DNA from: a virus
IMG/VR virus record: IMGVR_UViG_3300028384_000683
Span: 1-39,850 of that record
Direction: 5' to 3' (one strand)
Length of the DNA: 39,850 nucleotides
Made by a program: the position numbers and the translations under genes. Positions 7,211-34,379 of this stretch are shown here, in pieces (position 1 is the stretch's first letter; each line of letters opens with the position of its first letter). The notes beneath the pieces were generated by a model. It worked only from the letters and a program-made list of their open reading frames with translations. It made no database searches and was not told where the DNA came from.

Positions 7211-7742
7211 ACCAACTCACTAATACTAATCGTGTACCGCTTTCTACTTGAGCAACTCCGTGCATCAAGTCTTTATCATAAATTAACGTCTGACCTTTAT
7301 TTAGTCCTACGACTTTAGGTATAATTGTCTCGCCTAGAGGAGCCTCGTTGCCCTCTCCTCTCTTTGCATATTTGTTAGCTGGTCTTTGTCTTTTTTCATA
7401 AGGCAACATCACTAAAGATTCACCGCCTACTAACTCTCTATCATCAAGCACAGTTATCATTGTCTGGTAAACATACGTATGTGCGTCTGTATGAAACTTA
7501 GTAAACGCATCTGATCCATACTCTAAAAAATAATGAGAGTAGCTTTTTAACTCTTTACCTGCAAAATGATCAAGAGCGCTAAATGCATTTACACCTTCTC
7601 GGTCTTCTGATCTTGGCTGTCTCTTATCTACGTCAAATAAATTATAATCCTGGTGAGCAGGATTGCTTGGTAATGAGTTGTACAGCGAGACTAATTCACT
7701 TATCTGATTTGGTGTTAAGATGTTCTCTACTTTATAACTCAT
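7194..7742 (-). CDS. Fe(II)/2-oxoglutarate oxygenase, prolyl-4-hydroxylase-like
   Basis: 182 aa. Iron ligands H84-x-D86 (KFHTDAHTY) and H161 (LMHGVAQV) and the 2OG-binding R171 (SGTRLVLVSW) are all present, with the GGESL strand between them. This is the P4H/PKHD arrangement common in marine T4-like phages. The ATG at 7742 is only five bases after the -10 TACAAT of a strong promoter, and there is no Shine-Dalgarno inside the predicted transcript, so the mRNA should be leaderless or nearly so. Substrate unknown. Confidence 0.8.
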   Translation of the reverse strand: MSYKVENILTPNQISELVSLYNSLPSNPAHQDYNLFDVDKRQPRSEDREGVNAFSALDHFAGKELKSYSHYFLEYGSDAFTKFHTDAHTYVYQTMITVLDDRELVGGESLVMLPYEKRQRPANKYAKRGEGNEAPLGETIIPKVVGLNKGQTLIYDKDLMHGVAQVESGTRLVLVSWYDKAD

Positions 7743-7747
7743 GCTAC

Positions 7748-7776
7748 ATTGTACCTTAAGTTTTATTCTATGTCAA
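7748..7776 (-). promoter_or_regulatory. strong sigma70-like promoter, leaderless type
   Basis: TTGACA (7776-7771), 17 nt, TACAAT (7753-7748). Only GTAGC separates the -10 from the ATG at 7742, so transcription should begin at or next to the start codon. Confidence 0.8.
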
Positions 7777-10164: not shown

Positions 10165-10761
10165 TTATTTTGAATATTTTAAATTTACTTCTGCGTGCTT
10201 GGCTTCATCTTGCCTTACATACTTAATCAGATCCGATAGCTTGGCGTCTGGTAGCATGTTATAATAATCAATTGCTAACTGCGGTGCAGGTACGTCTTCT
10301 ACCTTTCCACCTTGTACTTGTTCGAGATAGGATGTGTAACTTTTTACAGCTTCGATCTCAAAGTAATGAATCATTCTATGAGCAGTCTTATCATCAACAA
10401 GATAAAGAACAGTAAAGAACCCAAAGAAGATCATCTGTGCAATTACAATCATCAACCTCTCAAACCAATTTGGTTGAGCAATCTCTATAAAGAACATTAA
10501 GTGCTTTCTTTCATTTACAGCTTCGTCTAATAACTCTTGGATCTTTTGTCCATTGCCTCTTTGCATTCTCCTAAGGGATTTCATATGCACAAGCATCCCC
10601 CCGACCATACCAGGAACACCAGCTACTGTTTCTAAAACAACAGCTCTGTGTCCATACCGTTCGGCAAAGAAAGTATCAGCTATAAATCTAAAAAACCAGG
10701 TCATTGATTTGGCAAACTTATCACGAAGCATATATATTTGTGTCCTTTTTGGAGTTGACAT
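10165..10761 (-). CDS. aox: alternative oxidase (ubiquinol:O2 oxidoreductase)
   Basis: 198-aa di-iron, membrane-associated terminal oxidase that would oxidise ubiquinol and reduce O2 to water without proton pumping. The AOX motifs are all visible: LETVAGVPGMVGGM (E44), NERKHLM (E84, H87), HYFEIEAVKSYT (E135/E137), VPAPQLAIDYY and RQDEAKHAEVN (E186, H189). So the six iron ligands are intact. It is closer in motif to bacterial and mitochondrial AOX than to the plastid-type oxidase of cyanophages. It is shorter than eukaryotic AOX, lacking the targeting leader. ATG 10761 overlaps the -35 of the divergent promoter at 10755-10783. See also the Coq4 homologue at 17201-18049. Confidence 0.92.
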   Translation of the reverse strand: MSTPKRTQIYMLRDKFAKSMTWFFRFIADTFFAERYGHRAVVLETVAGVPGMVGGMLVHMKSLRRMQRGNGQKIQELLDEAVNERKHLMFFIEIAQPNWFERLMIVIAQMIFFGFFTVLYLVDDKTAHRMIHYFEIEAVKSYTSYLEQVQGGKVEDVPAPQLAIDYYNMLPDAKLSDLIKYVRQDEAKHAEVNLKYSK

Positions 10762-10783
10762 TTTATTTATATTGTAGGATAAT
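10755..10783 (+). promoter_or_regulatory. sigma70-like promoter, leaderless type
   Basis: TTGACA (10755-10760), 17 nt, GATAAT (10778-10783), then seven bases to ATG 10791. Its -35 overlaps the AOX start codon on the other strand. Confidence 0.75.
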
Positions 10784-10790
10784 GACCGTT

Positions 10791-11600
10791 ATGTATAGAG
10801 CAGTAATGATCTGTGATCTAAAAAATCCCATCTCTGTTGCGTATAGCAAAATCGCAATGAAAACCTGGGAACCCGTTAAAGGCGTTAAGGTTGAACGCTG
10901 GCAATGCTATACACCAAACACTTTAGACGATGCTCCATTTAGAATCAACTGGGGTAGATATAGTAGTGCTGGAAAGTACTCTAAAGACAAGCACGAGATT
11001 ACTCCAACAGAGAAGGCTTGTTTGACTTCTATGTTTCATTGGTGGAAGCATACAGCTGATACAGGGGAGCGTGTTATCATTTTAGAGCATGATGCTTACG
11101 TTCGTGATCCAGAATCATTATCTAACTGGATCAAAACAATGCACACGTTCGATCTTTGGAATCCAGGCATTGCAATGGAGTGTGCTTCACTGAGGCCAGA
11201 CTTTGCTCAGTTCTGTATGAAGAAGTGGTTGAAGATGGGCGATGTAATTGATGCAGGTCCAATGGCAGAATTGTTTACTGCCATAGAAGAATATACAAGC
11301 GTGTGTGAGTTATACGGTAGTAGAAAAGAGAAACAAATTAGAAAAGAGCTTGACGTTAAATCAAGATGTAGGTTATTATGGCCAAACATATTCAGCAATA
11401 ATCAGATTGCTGCTGGTAACGATCCGAGGGGGACGATTAAAGACAAAGGATACAAAGCACCAGTGACACAAGTATATTGTCCTGGTAAAAATACGCTCGA
11501 GCACCACAAACGGAAAGGTGGTATTGAGTATGGTGATGGAACTTTCCGACAGATGGAGATTATTGATGACCTCAAGCAAGAAGCAAAAAAAGCTGGATAA
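10791..11600 (+). CDS. GT25-like glycosyltransferase-type protein
   Basis: About 269 aa. The segment TPTEKACLTSMFHWWK...VIILEHDAYV resembles the family-25 (LPS-type) motif in which an acidic cluster (normally EDDA) binds the metal; here it reads EHDA, so one acid is His. The rest (NIFSNNQIAAGNDPRG, NTLEHHKRKGG) is unfamiliar. The start at 10791 follows the -10 box by seven bases with no Shine-Dalgarno in the transcript; ATG 10806 is an alternative. Frame upstream of 10783 lies in the promoter and is not real. Catalytic competence is uncertain. Confidence 0.55.
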   Translation: MYRAVMICDLKNPISVAYSKIAMKTWEPVKGVKVERWQCYTPNTLDDAPFRINWGRYSSAGKYSKDKHEITPTEKACLTSMFHWWKHTADTGERVIILEHDAYVRDPESLSNWIKTMHTFDLWNPGIAMECASLRPDFAQFCMKKWLKMGDVIDAGPMAELFTAIEEYTSVCELYGSRKEKQIRKELDVKSRCRLLWPNIFSNNQIAAGNDPRGTIKDKGYKAPVTQVYCPGKNTLEHHKRKGGIEYGDGTFRQMEIIDDLKQEAKKAG

Positions 11601-12555: not shown

Positions 12556-12584
12556 TTGACTTCATTTTTATAATGTAGGATAAT
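12556..12584 (+). promoter_or_regulatory. sigma70-like promoter, leaderless type
   Basis: TTGACT (12556-12561), 17 nt, GATAAT (12579-12584), six bases to ATG 12591. Shares TGTAGGATAATG with the promoter at 10755-10783. Confidence 0.8.
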
Positions 12585-12590
12585 GGCGAA

Positions 12591-13469
12591 ATGATATTAG
12601 TTGATTTGAATCAGGTTATGATTAGTAACCTTATGGCCCAGATACACGGGCGTGGTGATGTAGACGTTAGTGAGGAACTGCTTAGGCATATGGTTCTCAA
12701 CTCTCTGAGGTCTTATCGAAACAAGTTTTCAGAAAAGTATGGAGAGCTAGTTATTTGTTGCGACGACACCAATAACTGGAGAAAGAAATTATTCCCATAC
12801 TACAAAGCTCATAGAAAGACAGCACGTGATGAGTCTAGTTACGACTGGCCTCATATCTTTAACTGTCTCAATACTATTAGAGATGAGCTCAAAGAATTTT
12901 TTCCGTATAGAGTAATCCAAGTAAGCACTGCTGAGGCAGATGATCTTATTGGTGTACTATGTCATGAGTATGGAGTAGAGTTAGGAGAGTCAGTTCCTAT
13001 CTTAATCCTGTCTGGTGATAAGGACTTTATACAGTTACAGAAGTTTTGTAATGTTGATCAATATGATCCAATTAGAAAAAGGAAGATCACTCATAATGAT
13101 CCTCACGAGTATCTATTGGAGCATATTATCAAAGGTGATAGAGGCGATGGCATTCCTAATGCCTTGTCCAAGGACGATGTGTTTGTCACTGGTGGAAGAC
13201 AGAAGCCGGTAAGACAAACTACATTGTCTAAAATCAAATCGACTGTAATCGAAAGAGGCGACCATAACCTTACACAGGAATTAGAATGGGCGTTGGGTTT
13301 CCAACGTAACAGAGCCTTGATTGATTTACAGTTTACGCCCAGCGAAATCAAGAGTCAGGTTTTAGACCAGTTTCTTGCTAATGATGAGCGTATTAGTAGG
13401 CCGGGATTGTTTAACTTCTTCGTAAGTCGTAAGCTAAATAATCTCATAGAAAATATAAGTGAGTTTTAA
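12591..13469 (+). CDS. rnh: 5'-3' exonuclease / flap nuclease, T4 RNase H family
   Basis: FEN-1-like nuclease that removes RNA primers from lagging-strand fragments. MILVDLNQVMISN carries the first metal Asp, then DDTNNWRKKLFPYYKAHRK (the basic helical arch start), TAEADDLIGVL (acidic pair of the second metal site), ILSGDKDFIQL (the SxDxDF motif) and GDRGDGIPN (helix-hairpin-helix with its acids). 292 aa against 305 in T4 Rnh. The ATG sits six bases behind GATAAT with no Shine-Dalgarno in the predicted mRNA. It leads the run to the PD-(D/E)XK gene. Confidence 0.93.
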   Translation: MILVDLNQVMISNLMAQIHGRGDVDVSEELLRHMVLNSLRSYRNKFSEKYGELVICCDDTNNWRKKLFPYYKAHRKTARDESSYDWPHIFNCLNTIRDELKEFFPYRVIQVSTAEADDLIGVLCHEYGVELGESVPILILSGDKDFIQLQKFCNVDQYDPIRKRKITHNDPHEYLLEHIIKGDRGDGIPNALSKDDVFVTGGRQKPVRQTTLSKIKSTVIERGDHNLTQELEWALGFQRNRALIDLQFTPSEIKSQVLDQFLANDERISRPGLFNFFVSRKLNNLIENISEF

Positions 13470-20488: not shown

Positions 20489-20787
20489 ACTTTACCTCTA
20501 TAACCTAATACATCTCTCATGATTGCTACTGGTGTCATATCATCGATTCTTGACATTTGAACATACTGTTCTACAGTGCAATTCTTAACAAGGAAGTTGA
20601 TCCATGCTTTGTATGGCTTGTAGCCGTATTTGAATCTAGCGATAAACTCAGGTTTTGGTTTACCTACCCATGAAGGGTGACAATCAGGATGAACAGAATC
20701 CATAGTTCTTGACAAACCGTGGTCGCCTCTGTACATCAAATACATGCCGTCCCATGTGAAATCTTCTTTCTTAAACGTTGTTTTCAT
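20371..20787 (-). CDS. hypothetical protein, 138 aa, overlapping the HAD gene
   Basis: ATG 20787 follows AAGGAGTTAGAT and an early-type promoter. Residues 1-100 look protein-like (EDFTWDGMYLMYRGDHGLSR, then HPSWVGKPKPEFIARF...YGYKPYKAWINFLVKN). The last 39 residues are encoded in the same DNA as the start of the HAD gene (118-nt overlap in another frame) and look like run-through. The true ancestral end may have been near residue 100. No family recognised. Confidence 0.65.
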   Translation of the reverse strand: MKTTFKKEDFTWDGMYLMYRGDHGLSRTMDSVHPDCHPSWVGKPKPEFIARFKYGYKPYKAWINFLVKNCTVEQYVQMSRIDDMTPVAIMRDVLGYRGKVWTAYFSTGKTLFKFGWNTKALKESRDINLYTTLQSSLD

Positions 20788-20814
20788 ATCTAACTCCTTA
20801 CTTAACATACAACT

Positions 20815-20843
20815 ATTATACTAAAGAGTTGATTTAAAGTCAA
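20815..20843 (-). promoter_or_regulatory. sigma70-like promoter with conserved leader
   Basis: TTGACT (20843-20838), 17 nt, TATAAT (20820-20815), then a leader containing TTAAGTAAGGAGTTAGAT before ATG 20787, the same leader as at 37674. Confidence 0.85.
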
Positions 20844-21790: not shown

Positions 21791-23617
21791 TCAGACAGTG
21801 TAAATGTCGATGAGTTCTTCCTTTCCTTTAACTTTAATGCGATCGACTTTATCGAAGCTTCGGCGTGTACTGCTTCCAGCAGTGAACTGTGATAGCAACA
21901 CTCGTACCCCATCGTAATTGCGAGTTTGGCCTTCGAGTCTAGCACCGAGGTTGACGGCATCTCCAATGACGGAATAGTCAAATCGAGTTTCTGATCCCAT
22001 GTTTCCGACGATGCAATCGCCGGTATTGATACCAATACCAACGTCAATGCGAGGTAAACCTTGTTCTTCCAGTTCTTTAATGAGTTCATCTGCTGCTTCG
22101 CTTATCTCTAACGCTGCATCTATTGCTTTGTCTGCATGATCTTCACATGGTAAAGGTGCATTCCAAAAAGCCATGATACAATCGCCCATGTACTTATCAA
22201 TAGTTCCACCATTATTTAGAATAATCTCAGTCATGCGACCAAGGTACATATTGATAAGTTCTACTAAACCTTCTGGATCATCATTGTTCTTATAATGTTC
22301 TGACACTGGAGTGAAGCCACATATATCCATGAATAGGAACGTCATATTCTTTCTTTCACCGCCGAGTTTAAGTAGTGAAGGGTCTTTCTGTAATAAATAA
22401 ACTTGACGAGGATCCAAGTACGTTTCGAACTGCTTTTTTATCATTTGTTTTTGTTGGTAAGTTATAAAGTACTTGTTAAAGGACGATTGAGCAAAAACAA
22501 CCAATGAACACAGAAACAATAGCGTTATATCGAAAAATAAGAGTTCTTGGTTCCACATCCAATACGATGTGCCAATCGCGCCTCCTATTACCATTAGAGA
22601 AGCTAACGCCGCTAGAGCTGTGGGAGCGACATAAACCAACCCCAAAATTACTAATCCAACTAACACCATTGAAAAGAGCTCAGCTACTTCAGACCAATCG
22701 GGAAGTTGTATTTGAACTCCTGAAAGCAAGGTATAAATCAGATGACCTTGAACTTCGTGGGGATGTCGTGCACCCGTGGGGGTTGGTACTGGATTAGATA
22801 ATCCTTCTGCTGTAACTCCAATAACAAAAGTCTTACCTTGTGCTTGATAGTCAGGCAAATCTAAAATACTAATCTGTTCAAACTTATTCCAAAAGCTGAT
22901 AGGCAGCTGCCCGTAACTATCTGTTACGATTGGATCTTGTCTTCCCATTCTAACCCATTCAATCCCATTGGGACCTACTTTCATTTGGTAACTGGGTTCT
23001 CCTGTATACACTCTGGCAGTATCAAGGGCAAGGGATGGATATTGAGATCCCCCTGCATTGACAACAAGAGGCGCTCGTCGCACGACTCCGGTGGGTTCAT
23101 CAGGAATAGCAACGGTGGCGCCAACGCCAAAAGCAACATTAGCAAGATTATCAATGGGATATAAAAGTCCCGTAAATTTATAGGTCCAATTTTCATTTTG
23201 TTCTCCGAATAGTGCTACTCCAACATGGGATCCAACTCCGTCACTGAGTTGAGATGATGGGGCCGATGACAAAACTGTAGCTTGCTGGTACAATGCCTCG
23301 GCAAGTTTCTGGTCTTGTCCAAACCTGTCTGGCTCGCTGAATAAGATGTTAAGTACGTAAAGATTACCAGGAGGAGCGGACCCGATATAGCCAGCAAGTA
23401 TATCCCTAGGCCAGGGCCACTGACCTTCTTTAGCAATCGCTTTTTCATCAATGTTAACCAGGACGATGTCCTCAACATTATTAACTTCCTTTTGATTTTG
23501 TAATAGATCGTAATAGTTGTACGAGAGACTTTGAATAAAGCCTGGATTATTTATTTGTAGTAAAGCGAAAAGTCCGATTGTTATTAGGACTGTCCACCAT
23601 TTAGTAAAATGATTCAT
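21791..23617 (-). CDS. CHASE2 sensor-class III adenylate cyclase
   Basis: 608 aa, membrane bound. One N-terminal TM (9-22) leads into an extracytoplasmic CHASE2 domain (about 30-300; DIVLVNIDEKAIAKEGQWPWPRD is typical), then three TMs (about 314-332, 334-354, 360-378), then a class III cyclase domain (424-608). Catalytic residues are complete: metal Asp D431 (FLFMDICGFT) and D479 (KYMGDCIMAF), adenine-reading K475 and D547, transition-state N556 and R560 (AVNLGARL). The K/D pair predicts cAMP rather than cGMP. CHASE2 cyclases are often paired with FecR-domain proteins in bacteria, and a FecR protein lies two genes upstream. Very unusual cargo for a phage. Start overlaps the curlin stop as ATGA. 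Confidence 0.93.
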   Translation of the reverse strand: MNHFTKWWTVLITIGLFALLQINNPGFIQSLSYNYYDLLQNQKEVNNVEDIVLVNIDEKAIAKEGQWPWPRDILAGYIGSAPPGNLYVLNILFSEPDRFGQDQKLAEALYQQATVLSSAPSSQLSDGVGSHVGVALFGEQNENWTYKFTGLLYPIDNLANVAFGVGATVAIPDEPTGVVRRAPLVVNAGGSQYPSLALDTARVYTGEPSYQMKVGPNGIEWVRMGRQDPIVTDSYGQLPISFWNKFEQISILDLPDYQAQGKTFVIGVTAEGLSNPVPTPTGARHPHEVQGHLIYTLLSGVQIQLPDWSEVAELFSMVLVGLVILGLVYVAPTALAALASLMVIGGAIGTSYWMWNQELLFFDITLLFLCSLVVFAQSSFNKYFITYQQKQMIKKQFETYLDPRQVYLLQKDPSLLKLGGERKNMTFLFMDICGFTPVSEHYKNNDDPEGLVELINMYLGRMTEIILNNGGTIDKYMGDCIMAFWNAPLPCEDHADKAIDAALEISEAADELIKELEEQGLPRIDVGIGINTGDCIVGNMGSETRFDYSVIGDAVNLGARLEGQTRNYDGVRVLLSQFTAGSSTRRSFDKVDRIKVKGKEELIDIYTV

Positions 23618-24267
23618 TGACCTTGAGTAACACTAACTGAACATCCAGCTGGATTCAAGCAAGTGTTTGTAATTGAATAACTCTGTGCTGTTGGTCCTTG
23701 TTGAAGGAGTTGTAATGTTGTAGCATAGTCGCCTTGTAATGTTACGGTTGCTGTATGAGCTCCTGTTCCTTTTTGTAATAAATCTACTTCTGCACTGTCT
23801 GTGGATCCATAATAATAAACTGTACTATACTTGTTACCAGAACCTTCTTGCCATACATCTGTAACTGTTGAGTCTGCATGAATGTCTAGGTATGTTTCAT
23901 GTTCACCAGATCCGTCTTGGTAAATGTTAACGTCATTATAGTTGCCCCATACATGAGCACCGTATGTACCATCGCCTTCTTGAAGAATGTCTATTGTGTT
24001 GTTTGTTCCGTCAACATCACCACCCCATCCTTTACCAGATCCCCACCAAGGAACCCAAGAGATAGTATTGTTGTTACCTTTCTGTTGAAGGTTAAATGTA
24101 TTATTGTTGTGATCTAAGGAAAACTGAATTAAGTTTCCATAACCATACTGGTCAATGTTTAACTGTAAGTTGTCTCCACCTGCTGTGGTAGCTTGTTCTA
24201 TGTGTACGTGATTGTCGCCAGCATATGCTGGGATAGCAAATAATGTTAATAATAAAAATAATCTCAT
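23614..24267 (-). CDS. curlin-repeat secreted protein (major-curlin-like)
   Basis: 217 aa. Signal peptide MRLFLLLTLFAIPAYAG, then about seven Q-x-G-x(2-3)-N-type repeats (QYGYGN, QKGNNN, QEGDGT, QDGSGE, QEGSGN, QKGTGA, QQGPTA) spaced about 20-30 residues, the amyloid-forming curlin pattern. A short Cys loop (CLNPAGC) lies near the C-terminus, as in the other curlin here. ATG 24267 has GGAGG eleven bases upstream. It would be exported through CsgG (26090-27004) and form a surface fibre. Confidence 0.85.
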   Translation of the reverse strand: MRLFLLLTLFAIPAYAGDNHVHIEQATTAGGDNLQLNIDQYGYGNLIQFSLDHNNNTFNLQQKGNNNTISWVPWWGSGKGWGGDVDGTNNTIDILQEGDGTYGAHVWGNYNDVNIYQDGSGEHETYLDIHADSTVTDVWQEGSGNKYSTVYYYGSTDSAEVDLLQKGTGAHTATVTLQGDYATTLQLLQQGPTAQSYSITNTCLNPAGCSVSVTQGQ

Positions 24268-24274
24268 GTTGTAT

Positions 24275-25414
24275 TTAGCCTCCTTGTTTAATTACAATGA
24301 TGCTATCTCCACCTTCGTTGAGCAAAATGGTACCTTCATACCCATCTACATTTGTTTCTAGTCTTACAGACGCATCAATAGAGAATGCTAATCTTATAAC
24401 ACCATTAACGTCTCTATAAAAGATTACATCGCTGTCTTGTTGAAAGATATTGTATTGTGAGTCTTTATTAAAACCAACAACAGCATTTGTCAATCTTAGT
24501 TCACCAACAGTATTGTCTAATCCTTGAGATCCAAGTTTCTCAGTTGTTCTTACAAGCTCCTCTATTACATCTAAAGCATCGACTAAGAAATCTACATCAA
24601 GAAAATCAATATCAAGTTCTGTAAATTCTAACTCTCCATTGTCTGCAAGGTAATCGGTTTCTAGTTCGTTAAACTCTAAGAAGTCTACATCAAGTATTCC
24701 TTGATCAGCGTCCATTTCATCTTGATACTCTTCTACCATATCCTGTTTTACTTCTGGCGGAGGAGATACGATAAACATATTATCAATCATACTTGCTGTA
24801 ATGTTTTGTATTGTTACTGGTGTCGTTGGTGGTGAGTCTATAGTTGATACAACTGTTGCTGCATATGCATCAGTCAATGTAACTTTACCGCCTTCGTTAA
24901 ACACATCTATTATTCCAGAAGGGTTACCAAATTCATCTGGAAGGAGAACAACCAATGATCGACCTAACTCGTCAATCGTTGTAGTGAAGTCTGTACCTCT
25001 TACTTGAATGGACGCAGTGGGGGTGCTAATGTCTATATTGTTTTTGTTAACCATTCCAAGTCTGCCAGAAGCAAATCTAGCAGTACCCAATGCCATGCGC
25101 ATTGTCATTTTAGACTTGGAAGGGTTAGGGTCGTAGTAGACCTTATCAATATAGACACGTGTGTGTTCAGTAAGAGAGAGTTCAGCTTTATCGAGAAACT
25201 CGATTAGCATACGACCATTGGTCGTCTCAGCTGTGTCGTTTAATTCTATGTTTGTTTGAAGTTGAGGCACCAAGACACTACCATCTCTAGTAAGAGAAGC
25301 ATTGCCTTTTAGCTCTCGGACATCCCCTATGGGCTCAGCATAGACTGCGCCCATTAGGAAAATAAGACTAGCTGTCGCTAGAACTGTCTTTTTGATTGAT
25401 CTGGATTGTTGCAT
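24275..25414 (-). CDS. FecR-domain periplasmic protein with acidic C-terminal repeat
   Basis: 379 aa. Signal peptide to about residue 26 (LATASLIFLMGAVYA). A FecR domain spans about 30-185: GNASLTRDGS, LNDTAETTNGRMLIEFLDKAELSL, then TPTASIQVRGTDFT and the 'VFNEGGKVTL' strand. Residues 225-290 are a Leu/Phe-Asp repeat (LDVDFLEFNELETDYL, ELDIDFLDVDFL). The end (VRLETNVDGYEGTILL) is beta-like. It starts inside the upstream curlin gene (47-nt overlap). Proteins of this type neighbour CHASE2 cyclases in bacteria and may feed them a signal; here the pair brackets a curlin gene. Confidence 0.85.
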   Translation of the reverse strand: MQQSRSIKKTVLATASLIFLMGAVYAEPIGDVRELKGNASLTRDGSVLVPQLQTNIELNDTAETTNGRMLIEFLDKAELSLTEHTRVYIDKVYYDPNPSKSKMTMRMALGTARFASGRLGMVNKNNIDISTPTASIQVRGTDFTTTIDELGRSLVVLLPDEFGNPSGIIDVFNEGGKVTLTDAYAATVVSTIDSPPTTPVTIQNITASMIDNMFIVSPPPEVKQDMVEEYQDEMDADQGILDVDFLEFNELETDYLADNGELEFTELDIDFLDVDFLVDALDVIEELVRTTEKLGSQGLDNTVGELRLTNAVVGFNKDSQYNIFQQDSDVIFYRDVNGVIRLAFSIDASVRLETNVDGYEGTILLNEGGDSIIVIKQGG

Positions 25415-26093
25415 TCTCTGAATCAATATCCAATGTGATAATACCGTTACAGGTTGTTATTCCTGTTGGGCAAGTACCACTAATCATGTTAATATCAATG
25501 TCAGCTGAATCACCTACGTGTGTTAGGTTGATTTCATGCTCCGCTCCGTCAGCCATATTCGTGTTGATGTTGTTTGAGTCTCCTGTAATATCGAAGTTCC
25601 AAACTGCATCGTCGACGTCTATGTCTACATCAAAAATATTGCTGTCGCCAATAACAGCTAAATCAAAATCTAATCTTTCTGCGCTCTGATTGTAACCTTG
25701 ATCGAAATCCATCTGGTTACTTGATCCAGTAATGTCAGAATTTATATCTGAGTCATTAGAGGAACCAATGTATCCAACGTTCCAATCCCAAATGTTACTG
25801 TCACCAGTAAATCCTAACACTATTGTTGAAGTGTCAGCATCGTATTCACCAAACAATACGTTCTCGTTACCGATCTGATCAATGTCGATATTCAAAGTTG
25901 TACCTGTAATAGGCATAGCTACAGAACCAGATGAAAAGTTAGTTTTTCCAATCTTGTTACCGTAACCGTATTGATCAATGTAAAGAGTCAATGTGTCACC
26001 AACTTGTTCAATGTTGATTTCATTATCGTCTGTTGCTTGAGCAAATACTGAAGATGTAGATATGATTAATAATAGGCCTAAAATATATTTCAT
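25368..26093 (-). CDS. second curlin-like secreted repeat protein
   Basis: 241 aa. Signal peptide MKYILGLLLIISTSSVFAQ. It shares with the other curlin the opening 'I-E-Q...L.L.IDQYGYGN' and adds DIDQIGNENV, then degenerate GDSN/GSSN repeats (TGDSNIWDW, IGDSNIFDV, TGDSNNINT) and ends IQINQKD. The composition is unusually rich in Asp, Asn and Ile. A CPTGITTC loop precedes the end. It may be the nucleator (CsgB-like) or a minor subunit; that division is inference. The start overlaps the csgG stop by 4 nt as ATGA. Confidence 0.75.
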   Translation of the reverse strand: MKYILGLLLIISTSSVFAQATDDNEINIEQVGDTLTLYIDQYGYGNKIGKTNFSSGSVAMPITGTTLNIDIDQIGNENVLFGEYDADTSTIVLGFTGDSNIWDWNVGYIGSSNDSDINSDITGSSNQMDFDQGYNQSAERLDFDLAVIGDSNIFDVDIDVDDAVWNFDITGDSNNINTNMADGAEHEINLTHVGDSADIDINMISGTCPTGITTCNGIITLDIDSENATIQINQKDSSSDS

Positions 26094-30984: not shown

Positions 30985-31538
30985 CACTTAAACCTCTCCC
31001 CTTTAAACATAATCTTAATTCTCTTTACAGGTCCACTAGTAACAAGTTGATAACCAACCTGCTCCATTGACGGATACATTATTACAGTTCCCTGTTCGTT
31101 AGTCCAGTTAGGTTGATGCTCTGCGCTCTCTACAATCAACGAACCAAAGTTATCAATTCTAGGAGGCGGTGCCCAATGTTTAAATGTTAGTTCTCCACCT
31201 TGAACATCATCACGACTTGATACGTTTATAATTACAGATATCTTATGAATGTCTTCTTTAAGAATGTTTCCTGTATGCACGGTATGATCTGGTACTAGTG
31301 TTTGCATAACAGAACCTTCATTGCCTGTAAACTCTACTAGCGATGTTTGATCAAGGTTGATATTGAACTTAAGTACGTCGTTGTTGTATTCAGTTACAAG
31401 GTCTGCAACTTTTTTTACTACGTCCTTAGCTTGTTGGCTTATGTTATTGTCTATGACATTATCGTATAAGACATTAACTTCCTCTTCAGTGAGAGCTTCA
31501 CGGATAGCTCTGAAAACCGATGAGTTGATTACTTCCAT
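30984..31538 (-). CDS. degenerate 2OG-oxygenase-fold protein
   Basis: 184 aa. The P4H scaffold is visible: ISVIINVSSRDDVQGGELTFKH, then GTVIMYPSMEQVGYQLVTSGPVKRIKIMF. The iron ligands are not: the HxD position reads HTG, the distal His is Tyr (GYQLV), and the 2OG Arg slot is shifted (PVKRIK). So the fold probably lacks normal catalysis. It is coupled by TAATG to bS21 upstream and by TGATG to the 92-aa gene. A binding protein derived from an oxygenase is the simplest reading. Confidence 0.55.
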   Translation of the reverse strand: MEVINSSVFRAIREALTEEEVNVLYDNVIDNNISQQAKDVVKKVADLVTEYNNDVLKFNINLDQTSLVEFTGNEGSVMQTLVPDHTVHTGNILKEDIHKISVIINVSSRDDVQGGELTFKHWAPPPRIDNFGSLIVESAEHQPNWTNEQGTVIMYPSMEQVGYQLVTSGPVKRIKIMFKGERFK

Positions 31539-31774
31539 TATCTTGTTATCCTATTTTGTCTCCTAATGCTATCTAGGCGTTTAGCCTTTAGCAAATCTTT
31601 TTTCTTTTTACGTTTGAGAGATTGGTTGTCTCTATTCTTGATAGAGGACGGCTTCTCAAAGTACTCTAGGTCACGACATCGTTTAACAATACCAGCCCGT
31701 TCACACTGGTTGCGAAATCGTCTAAGCATTTTATCGAACGGTTCGTTTTTAAACTTTTGTGTCACTTTCGGCAT
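31538..31774 (-). CDS. rpsU: ribosomal protein bS21, phage-encoded
   Basis: 78 aa. VTQKFKNEPFDKMLRRFRNQCERAGI and the CRDLEYFEKPSSIKNR block are the bS21 family signature, followed by the usual Lys/Arg-rich C-terminal helix (LKRKKKKDLLKAKRL). bS21 sits on the 30S platform beside the anti-Shine-Dalgarno end of 16S rRNA, so a phage copy can change initiation on incoming mRNAs. Its own ATG follows TATAAT by six bases, with no ribosome site in the transcript. Other marine phages encode bS21; the link to leaderless genes here is new inference. Confidence 0.95.
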   Translation of the reverse strand: MPKVTQKFKNEPFDKMLRRFRNQCERAGIVKRCRDLEYFEKPSSIKNRDNQSLKRKKKKDLLKAKRLDSIRRQNRITR

Positions 31775-31780
31775 GATGTA

Positions 31781-31809
31781 ATTATATCCTCTTAAGGATT
31801 AAAAGTCAA
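31781..31809 (-). promoter_or_regulatory. strong sigma70-like promoter, leaderless type
   Basis: TTGACT (31809-31804), 17 nt, TATAAT (31786-31781), TACATC, ATG 31774. The only purine-rich site (GAGGA) lies upstream of the -10 and would not be transcribed. Confidence 0.85.
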
Positions 31810-32846: not shown

Positions 32847-33183
32847 CTAATAGTGTCTGTACAAGATTCCTAATTAGGAATAAAAGTCCGAAGCTATTTA
32901 GTATAATTAGAGCTCTGTCCCTCCACATAATGGAAACACCAAGCCAACCAGCAATACCAATAACAGATAAACTGAGGTCCCAAAGCGCAAGCTCTGGGAC
33001 ACCTCTAATAGACATTGCCGCAAGTACAACAGCAGAGCTGAACCATTTAAGGTACCAGTCTGGCGTGTACTTTGGAGTCGCACTCTTGAAGATTCGATCG
33101 GACCTAAGTTTAGGTACGGCCTTTAACTCTTCAGGTTTAAACTCAATGTTGCTTTTTAATATTTTATCTTTTGGCGGTGTCAA
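32842..33183 (-). CDS. membrane protein, 113 aa, TTG start
   Basis: The N-terminal 45 residues are hydrophilic ([19 protein letters not shown]). Then come three hydrophobic segments: [29 protein letters not shown], and [17 protein letters not shown] 33183 overlaps the isocitrate lyase stop and has AGGAAC seven bases upstream; there is no ATG that would keep the N-terminal domain. It is coupled to isocitrate lyase. Function unknown. Confidence 0.65.
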
Positions 33184-34379
33184 AATTGTTCCTGTTCTGT
33201 AGAGTCAGCTAATGCAGTAACACTATCATTACCTAATGCTTGACTGATTGCATCAAAGTATCCAACACCAACTTCTCGTTGATGCTTGCTTGATGTAAAG
33301 CCTTTTTCCCTTGCAAGAATTTCTTTCTCTTGCAGATCACTAAATGCTTTCATACCATATTGTCTATAACGATCTGCAAAATCAAACACTGCATAGTTAG
33401 TAGCATGGAAGCCAGCTAGTGTAATGAACTGAAACTTAAATCCAAGTTTACTGAGGTCCCTTTGGAAAGCAAGTAGACCGGTATGACCTAAATGCTCAGA
33501 CCATCTAAACGAAGGCGAACAGTTGTAGGCCAACATTGCGTTTGGATTAGCTGCACGAACTCCATCAGCCCAGTACTTAGCTTCTTTGAGACATGGCTTA
33601 GATGTTTCGCACCAAATGAGATCTGCATATTCTGAGTATGCTTGACCTCGTTCGACACAATAGTCTAACCCACCGTTGATCTCATAGAACCCTTCTGCTG
33701 TTCGTTTTCCATTACAAAACTTTTTGTCGATGTCGTCGACATCGTTTGATAACAACTTAGCTGATTCAGCATCTGTCCTTGCGATGACCAAGGTATCTGT
33801 TCCTGCCACGTCTGAAGCAAGGCGAGCAGCATTAAGATTACGAATAGCTTGTGAAGTAGGGATAAGAACTTTGCCTCCCAAGTGTCCGCATTTCTTTTCG
33901 CTTGCCAATTGGTCTTCAAAGTGGACAGCAGCCGCTCCGGCTTCGATAAGATTTCTTGCAAGTTCATAACTGTTTAAAGCTCCTCCAAATCCTGCTTCCG
34001 CGTCTGCGATGATAGGTGCAAAACTAAAACCTCGGTCACCTTCTGCAACTGAGATTTGGTCAGCACGACGGAAAGCATTATTAATGTTACGAACAACGTT
34101 GGGCACAGAAGAAACACTATATAGAGACTGATCAGGAAATACTTGATCGTCTGAATTGTTTGCTGCAGCAACTTGCCAACCGCTAACATAGATTGCTTTA
34201 AGTCCTGCTTTAACTTGCTGTACTGCTTGTTGTCCATTATACGCACCAAATGCTTGAACGTAGTCTTCGTTCTCTAGTAGATCCCGTAACTTACGAGCCC
34301 CCAGTCTAGCTAGAGTATGATCGATCTGTACAGATCCTTTTAATTTTAGGACATCGTCCTCACTGTAAATCCTCTTCAT
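33180..34379 (-). CDS. aceA: isocitrate lyase
   Basis: 399 aa. Cleaves isocitrate to glyoxylate and succinate (glyoxylate shunt). The family motifs are intact: [43 protein letters not shown] (metal Asp), [19 protein letters not shown] with the catalytic K-K-C164-[22 protein letters not shown] and [11 protein letters not shown]. The end ([14 protein letters not shown]) also matches bacterial enzymes. It is a little shorter than E. coli AceA (434 aa), without the 6-residue insert after FRRADQI and part of the N-terminus. ATG 34379 has CAGGAATCA upstream. No malate synthase is in the window. It looks recently and well conserved, so probably active. Confidence 0.97.

Follow-up and report, generated by a model that had tools for sequence, protein, structure and literature searches.

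A T4-like phage probably makes ribosomal protein bS21 without the usual ribosome-binding site

Among ribosomal proteins, bS21 is described as the one that phages carry most often (PMC9976891). A phage bS21 gene with a promoter placed directly against its start codon raises the question of how this protein is itself translated, and what the answer says about its benefit to the phage. The gene lies in the IMG/VR virus record IMGVR_UViG_3300028384_000683, all 39,850 bases of which were analyzed and are called the window below. Judged by its sequence, the phage is T4-like: among other phage genes, the window has those for a helicase loader, RNase H, PhoH, denV and a single-strand binding protein of the T4 type, and its best DNA match in the phage collection, with tRNA genes left out, was C48C1, classed in Kyanoviridae. 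The bS21 locus comprises the following features.

31538..31774, minus strand: bS21 gene, 78 aa, ATG at 31774-31772, identified by PF01165, phrog_21469 and the alignment with relatives
31775..31780, minus strand: TACATC between the -10 box and the ATG, a spacing that puts the expected transcription start on the A of the ATG
31781..31786, minus strand: -10 box TATAAT, separated from the -35 box by 17 bp and from the ATG by 6 nt, kept in five of five lineages
31787..31793, minus strand: Shine-Dalgarno (SD)-like AAGAGGA inside the promoter spacer, scored by duplex energy
31804..31809, minus strand: -35 box TTGACT, kept in five of five lineages

The encoded protein matched Pfam family PF01165 (E=5e-11, 42.5 bits, cut-off 27) and phrog_21469, ribosomal protein S21 (E=8e-14), and the profile of its clade matched bacterial bS21 chains from the PDB with E-values down to 8e-14. 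Its start codon was fixed by homology, the alignment with relatives giving the N-terminus MPKVTQK. The protein most resembles bS21 of the proteobacterial type; a peptide-seed search found no bacterial relative of it. The neighboring genes encode a DNA methyltransferase, isocitrate lyase, denV and a 2OG oxygenase.

The stretch 31538-31809 is bounded exactly by the bS21 stop codon and the -35 box. Upstream of the gene, the minus strand reads TTGACT-TTTAATCCTTAAGAGGA-TATAAT-TACATC-ATG, a near-consensus sigma70 promoter. The first-pass annotation had described TATAAT-TACATC-ATG in front of a bS21 gene, and coordinates, promoter anatomy and the Pfam-supported gene all agree with this description. 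In sigma70 promoters, six bases usually separate the -10 box from the start point, so transcription of the bS21 gene is expected to begin at the A of its ATG. The expected transcript starts with AUG and contains no SD, and the distance of 6 nt between the -10 box and the ATG (6, 7, 8 and 12 nt in relatives) is that of a leaderless gene. The same annotation had denied the locus any usable ribosome site, which is correct in part: AAGAGGA is present 12 nt before the ATG, with a predicted pairing of -5.8 kcal/mol, but transcription is expected to start 3' of it, which would confine it to read-through RNA, and the relatives lack it. Such an arrangement is not expected by chance: the window contains 15 promoters of the strength of the bS21 promoter versus a mean of 1.6 in 100 dinucleotide shuffles (maximum 6), and five ATGs that open ORFs of at least 50 codons 5-8 nt after a -10 box versus none in 100 shuffles.

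Seven relatives of the window bS21, representing four further lineages, were found in IMG/VR, so that the conservation sample comprises five lineages including the window, the relatives being fragments. Each of the five, four of which are diverged relatives, has TTGACT and TATAAT placed against the bS21 ATG. The -10 box is separated from the ATG by 6 nt in the window, 8 nt in G001/G002, 7 nt in G003, 6 nt in G004 and 12 nt in G005, and the stretches between them in the relatives are ATTACACC, ATATACT, TACATA and ATACATTACATT; in G001/G002 the spacing of 8 goes with a 15-bp promoter spacer and becomes 6 if TAATAT is taken as the -10 box, with a 17-bp spacer. The spacing of 12 in G005 predicts a leader of about 5 nt on its bS21 mRNA. 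The promoter spacer regions have 6-12 of 17 bases in common between lineages. Just 5' of the promoter, the window, G002 and G003 have similar DNA and G004 and G005 a different kind, yet the promoter is kept, which indicates that the junction of promoter and ATG outlasted a change of neighbor. No SD was found before bS21 in the relatives, where duplex energies range from +0.4 to +1.8 kcal/mol versus the value in the window given above. Two of the same contigs carry glutaredoxin-like genes (G004 at 1013, minus strand, and G005 at 23794, plus strand) preceded by TATAAT-GGAGTTATT-ATG, in which a good SD directly adjoins the -10 box; transcripts starting at this promoter would lack the SD, and only read-through RNA would contain it.

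What the DNA itself shows is the bS21 promoter, its spacing, the fact that five lineages keep it, and the absence of an SD before bS21 in the relatives. Together with the virome-wide test described below, promoter anatomy and conservation support the earlier proposal that the gene is leaderless, and the virus probably makes bS21 without the usual ribosome-binding site. We consider it fairly likely that the bS21 mRNA is leaderless, that it is translated by an AUG-first route needing neither an SD nor bS21, and that this may provide homeostatic feedback. A promoter of the host sigma70 type would read the gene with a start point coinciding with the start codon, yielding an mRNA with no 5' leader or one of a few bases. 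We infer the exact transcription start site, a leaderless route of the 70S/IF2 type for this mRNA and, as a consequence, synthesis of bS21 that would proceed without SD pairing, even on ribosomes lacking bS21. Since ribosomes without bS21 are poor on SD mRNAs, the supply of bS21 would be driven by demand and homeostatic, instead of a self-reinforcing switch. If so, the leaderless gene gives a concrete clue to what the phage gains from it, its synthesis being set up independently of SD recognition, the very process that bS21 supports.

Published observations fit the synthesis of bS21 by ribosomes that lack it. In E. coli, 61S ribosomes without bS1, uS2 and bS21 select leaderless mRNA for translation (PMC4929434). 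The proposed logic is also like that of bS21 autoregulation in Flavobacterium johnsoniae, where bS21-less ribosomes preferentially make bS21 (McNutt et al. 2023, PMC9976891); there, however, the bS21 gene has an extra-strong SD that these ribosomes read, while for the window bS21 no leader is expected. The Bacteroidota pattern, with an extra-strong SD at rpsU and most other genes SD-less, is thus reversed, since in our case it is the bS21 genes of the relatives that are SD-less and 32 of the 55 window genes that have an SD. Leaderless mRNAs of the lambda cI type likewise have the AUG at or near the 5' end and no SD; cI, however, is not a ribosomal protein gene, and in the T4-like phages the layout occurs in a set of genes, many of them for DNA replication.

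The first-pass annotation had also reported several further genes with the layout of bS21. Four candidates were found in the window.

7743..7776, minus strand: promoter TTGACA-17-TACAAT-5-ATG of the gene at 7742-7194, 2OG-Fe(II) oxygenase-like
10755..10790, plus strand: promoter TTGACA-17-GATAAT-7-ATG of the gene at 10791-11600, 269 aa, divergent from the minus-strand gene starting at 10761
12556..12590, plus strand: promoter TTGACT-17-GATAAT-6-ATG of the gene at 12591-13469, T4 RNase H family
20787..20843, minus strand: probable mimic, TTGACT-17-TATAAT-6-ATG with its ATG at 20808, then TAAGGAGTTAGAT and a second ATG in the same frame at 20787

Three of them, starting at 10791, 12591 and 7742, uphold this report. 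The layout of the gene at 10791 is similar (6-7 nt) in relatives L069-L076; an AGGA overlaps its -10 box and might act as an SD in a longer RNA. Homologs of the gene at 7742 have TATAAT-6-ATG in L039-L042, L045, L054, L060, L065 and L066, and the upstream regions of other homologs differ. The RNase H gene is leaderless in the window and L267 and leadered in G002 and G005, and we do not count it as a conserved leaderless case. The fourth candidate was rejected as a leaderless gene because its ATG at 20808 is followed 21 nt later by an SD-led ATG in frame, an arrangement that recurs in G002 at 64654. ATG 20808 coincides with the expected transcription start and shares its frame with ATG 20787, seven codons further on; the two may be alternative start sites for one protein.

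We scanned IMG/VR for TTGACT-17-TATAAT-6-ATG and for the same pattern with a control spacing of 12, judging start codons by ORF length (at least 50 codons). Among the matches listed, whose counts are not prevalences, ORFs were opened at 100 of 125 distinct sites with spacing 6 versus 46 of 114 with spacing 12 (p=3e-10). Over all promoters of the loci fetched, excluding the offsets used for selection, the distances of frame-opening ATGs from promoters were bimodal, with one mode at 6-7 nt and another at 25-33 nt, and at 5-8 nt frames were opened by ATG in 39 of 57 cases, by GTG in one of 11 and by TTG in four of 15. The longer genes with the leaderless layout include, among the matches listed, those for DNA polymerase, primase, NAD-dependent ligase, RNase H and UvdE. 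In the complete phage record C48C1, the DNA polymerase gene has TATAAT-7-ATG at its annotated start (30980), and the DNA methyltransferase gene has an ATG 6 nt after TATAAT, the annotated start lying two codons earlier. By their layout, leaderless genes form a class in related T4-like phages, many of them serving DNA replication, and bS21 is one member; the existence of such a class in uncultured phages bears on how translation starts early in infection. No relevant report of a leaderless phage bS21 or of leaderless myovirus genes was found in the open-access literature.

This class allows for plain compaction, by which promoters were pushed against the start codons of many genes, leaderless translation being good enough in these hosts, and the position of bS21 among such genes has no regulatory meaning of its own. 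Compaction agrees with the finding of the layout in many phage contigs at genes for DNA polymerase, primase, ligase, RNase H and UvdE, and with C48C1, in which the bS21 profile found no match. Since phages without such a match also show the arrangement, at other genes, nothing requires bS21 and leaderless translation to be specially linked. It is nevertheless doubtful that compaction is the whole explanation, because bS21 keeps its layout in five of five lineages whereas the RNase H gene is leaderless in some contigs and leadered in others, and because other phage bS21 genes are not leaderless. Nine of the latter (the bS21 of HTVC008M and eight genes from seven contigs, L402-L407, L410 and L411) had SD-like leaders or no such promoter before the ATG; five of these seven contigs had been fetched for a leaderless layout at another gene. 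The leaderless bS21 is hence a feature of the clade of the window and not of phage bS21 genes in general. One of the contigs, G024 (78 kb, phage), contains two different bS21 genes, L402 and L403, both with GGAG-type leaders.

The leaderless reading also distinguishes the window bS21 from the phage bS21 genes already described, those of HTVC008M (Mizuno et al. 2019, PMC6375957) and of Bacteroidetes phages (Chen et al. 2022, PMC9723584), whose products, like that of the window, could enter host ribosomes; the portions of the two papers available to us make no mention of a leaderless layout. The HTVC008M gene has no adjacent promoter of the kind seen in the window and has AAAGGG before its ATG. 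Among these phage proteins, incorporation into the 30S subunit was demonstrated for the HTVC008M product (PMC6375957). In Bacteroidetes phages (PMC9723584), bS21 lies among terminase, capsid and portal genes and was highly expressed with structural genes late in infection, while the window bS21 has a sigma70-like promoter and no such neighbors.

A further possibility is that bS21 is mostly translated from a longer RNA, the promoter being of minor importance, either by coupling to the upstream gene or through AAGAGGA. The end of the upstream gene lies 37 nt from the bS21 ATG, too close for a terminator to fit, and AAGAGGA, with its predicted pairing of -5.8 kcal/mol, could serve read-through RNA in the window. 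We nevertheless regard predominant translation from such RNA as improbable, because none of the relatives has AAGAGGA and every one of them has TTGACT and TATAAT, even where the upstream DNA differs.

Finally, the first-pass annotation had proposed that phage bS21 displaces host bS21 and weakens the use of SDs, favoring leaderless phage mRNAs including its own. Such a remodeling of the 30S subunit, by which leaderless mRNAs would gain over SD mRNAs, would amount to a ribosome-specialization switch written into mRNA architecture, and we consider it very unlikely. Four window genes are leaderless by layout, as this idea would have it, and E. coli ribosomes with HTVC008M bS21 gave only about 5% of the GFP output from a T7-promoter template (PMC6375957); leaderless mRNA was outside that assay, which keeps the idea alive, and the authors suggest that the low output could stem from incompatibility between this bS21 and the E. 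coli ribosome. However, strong SDs precede 32 of the 55 window genes, with starts picked by eye from ORFs, versus 8% of background positions, and occlusion of the anti-SD would therefore harm the phage itself. Leaderless genes also exist in C48C1 without a bS21 match, and bS21 was not significantly more common in contigs with leaderless genes (5 of 32 versus 2 of 32, p=0.43); its absence from the other 27 of the 32 searched records with leaderless genes is soft, as the records are fragments. In addition, anti-SD occlusion of the Bacteroidota type involves an aromatic residue, Tyr54 in F. johnsoniae, and no aromatic residue was found at this position of the window bS21 in the alignment with 7jil and the clade: the counterpart is Arg55, invariant in the clade, the position being extrapolated by four residues from the alignment of profile positions 11-51 with 7jil 10-50. 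The proposed retuning of initiation thus finds no support.

Several other genes of the window deserve mention. A full-length isocitrate lyase, an enzyme of the glyoxylate shunt, is encoded at 33180-34379 on the minus strand (PF00463, E=3e-86), with 56-70% identity to its best matches in bacterial genomes; a related gene is also present in C48C1. It was rejected as a route to the host, because its top match, L078, is itself probably from a phage relative and the remaining matches are scattered over phyla. L078, a 6-kb contig of a gammaproteobacterial MAG, has matches to the window not only at isocitrate lyase but also at the alternative oxidase and tRNA genes, and is probably a misbinned relative of the window phage. 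The sequence before the alternative oxidase gene (10165-10761, minus strand; PF01786, 228 bits), TATAAATAAA-ATG, looks like a T4 late promoter placed immediately 5' of the start codon. At 21791-25426, on the minus strand, a CHASE2-nucleotide cyclase protein of 608 aa is encoded near a FecR-like protein, a pair that may point to cyclic-nucleotide signaling in the phage.
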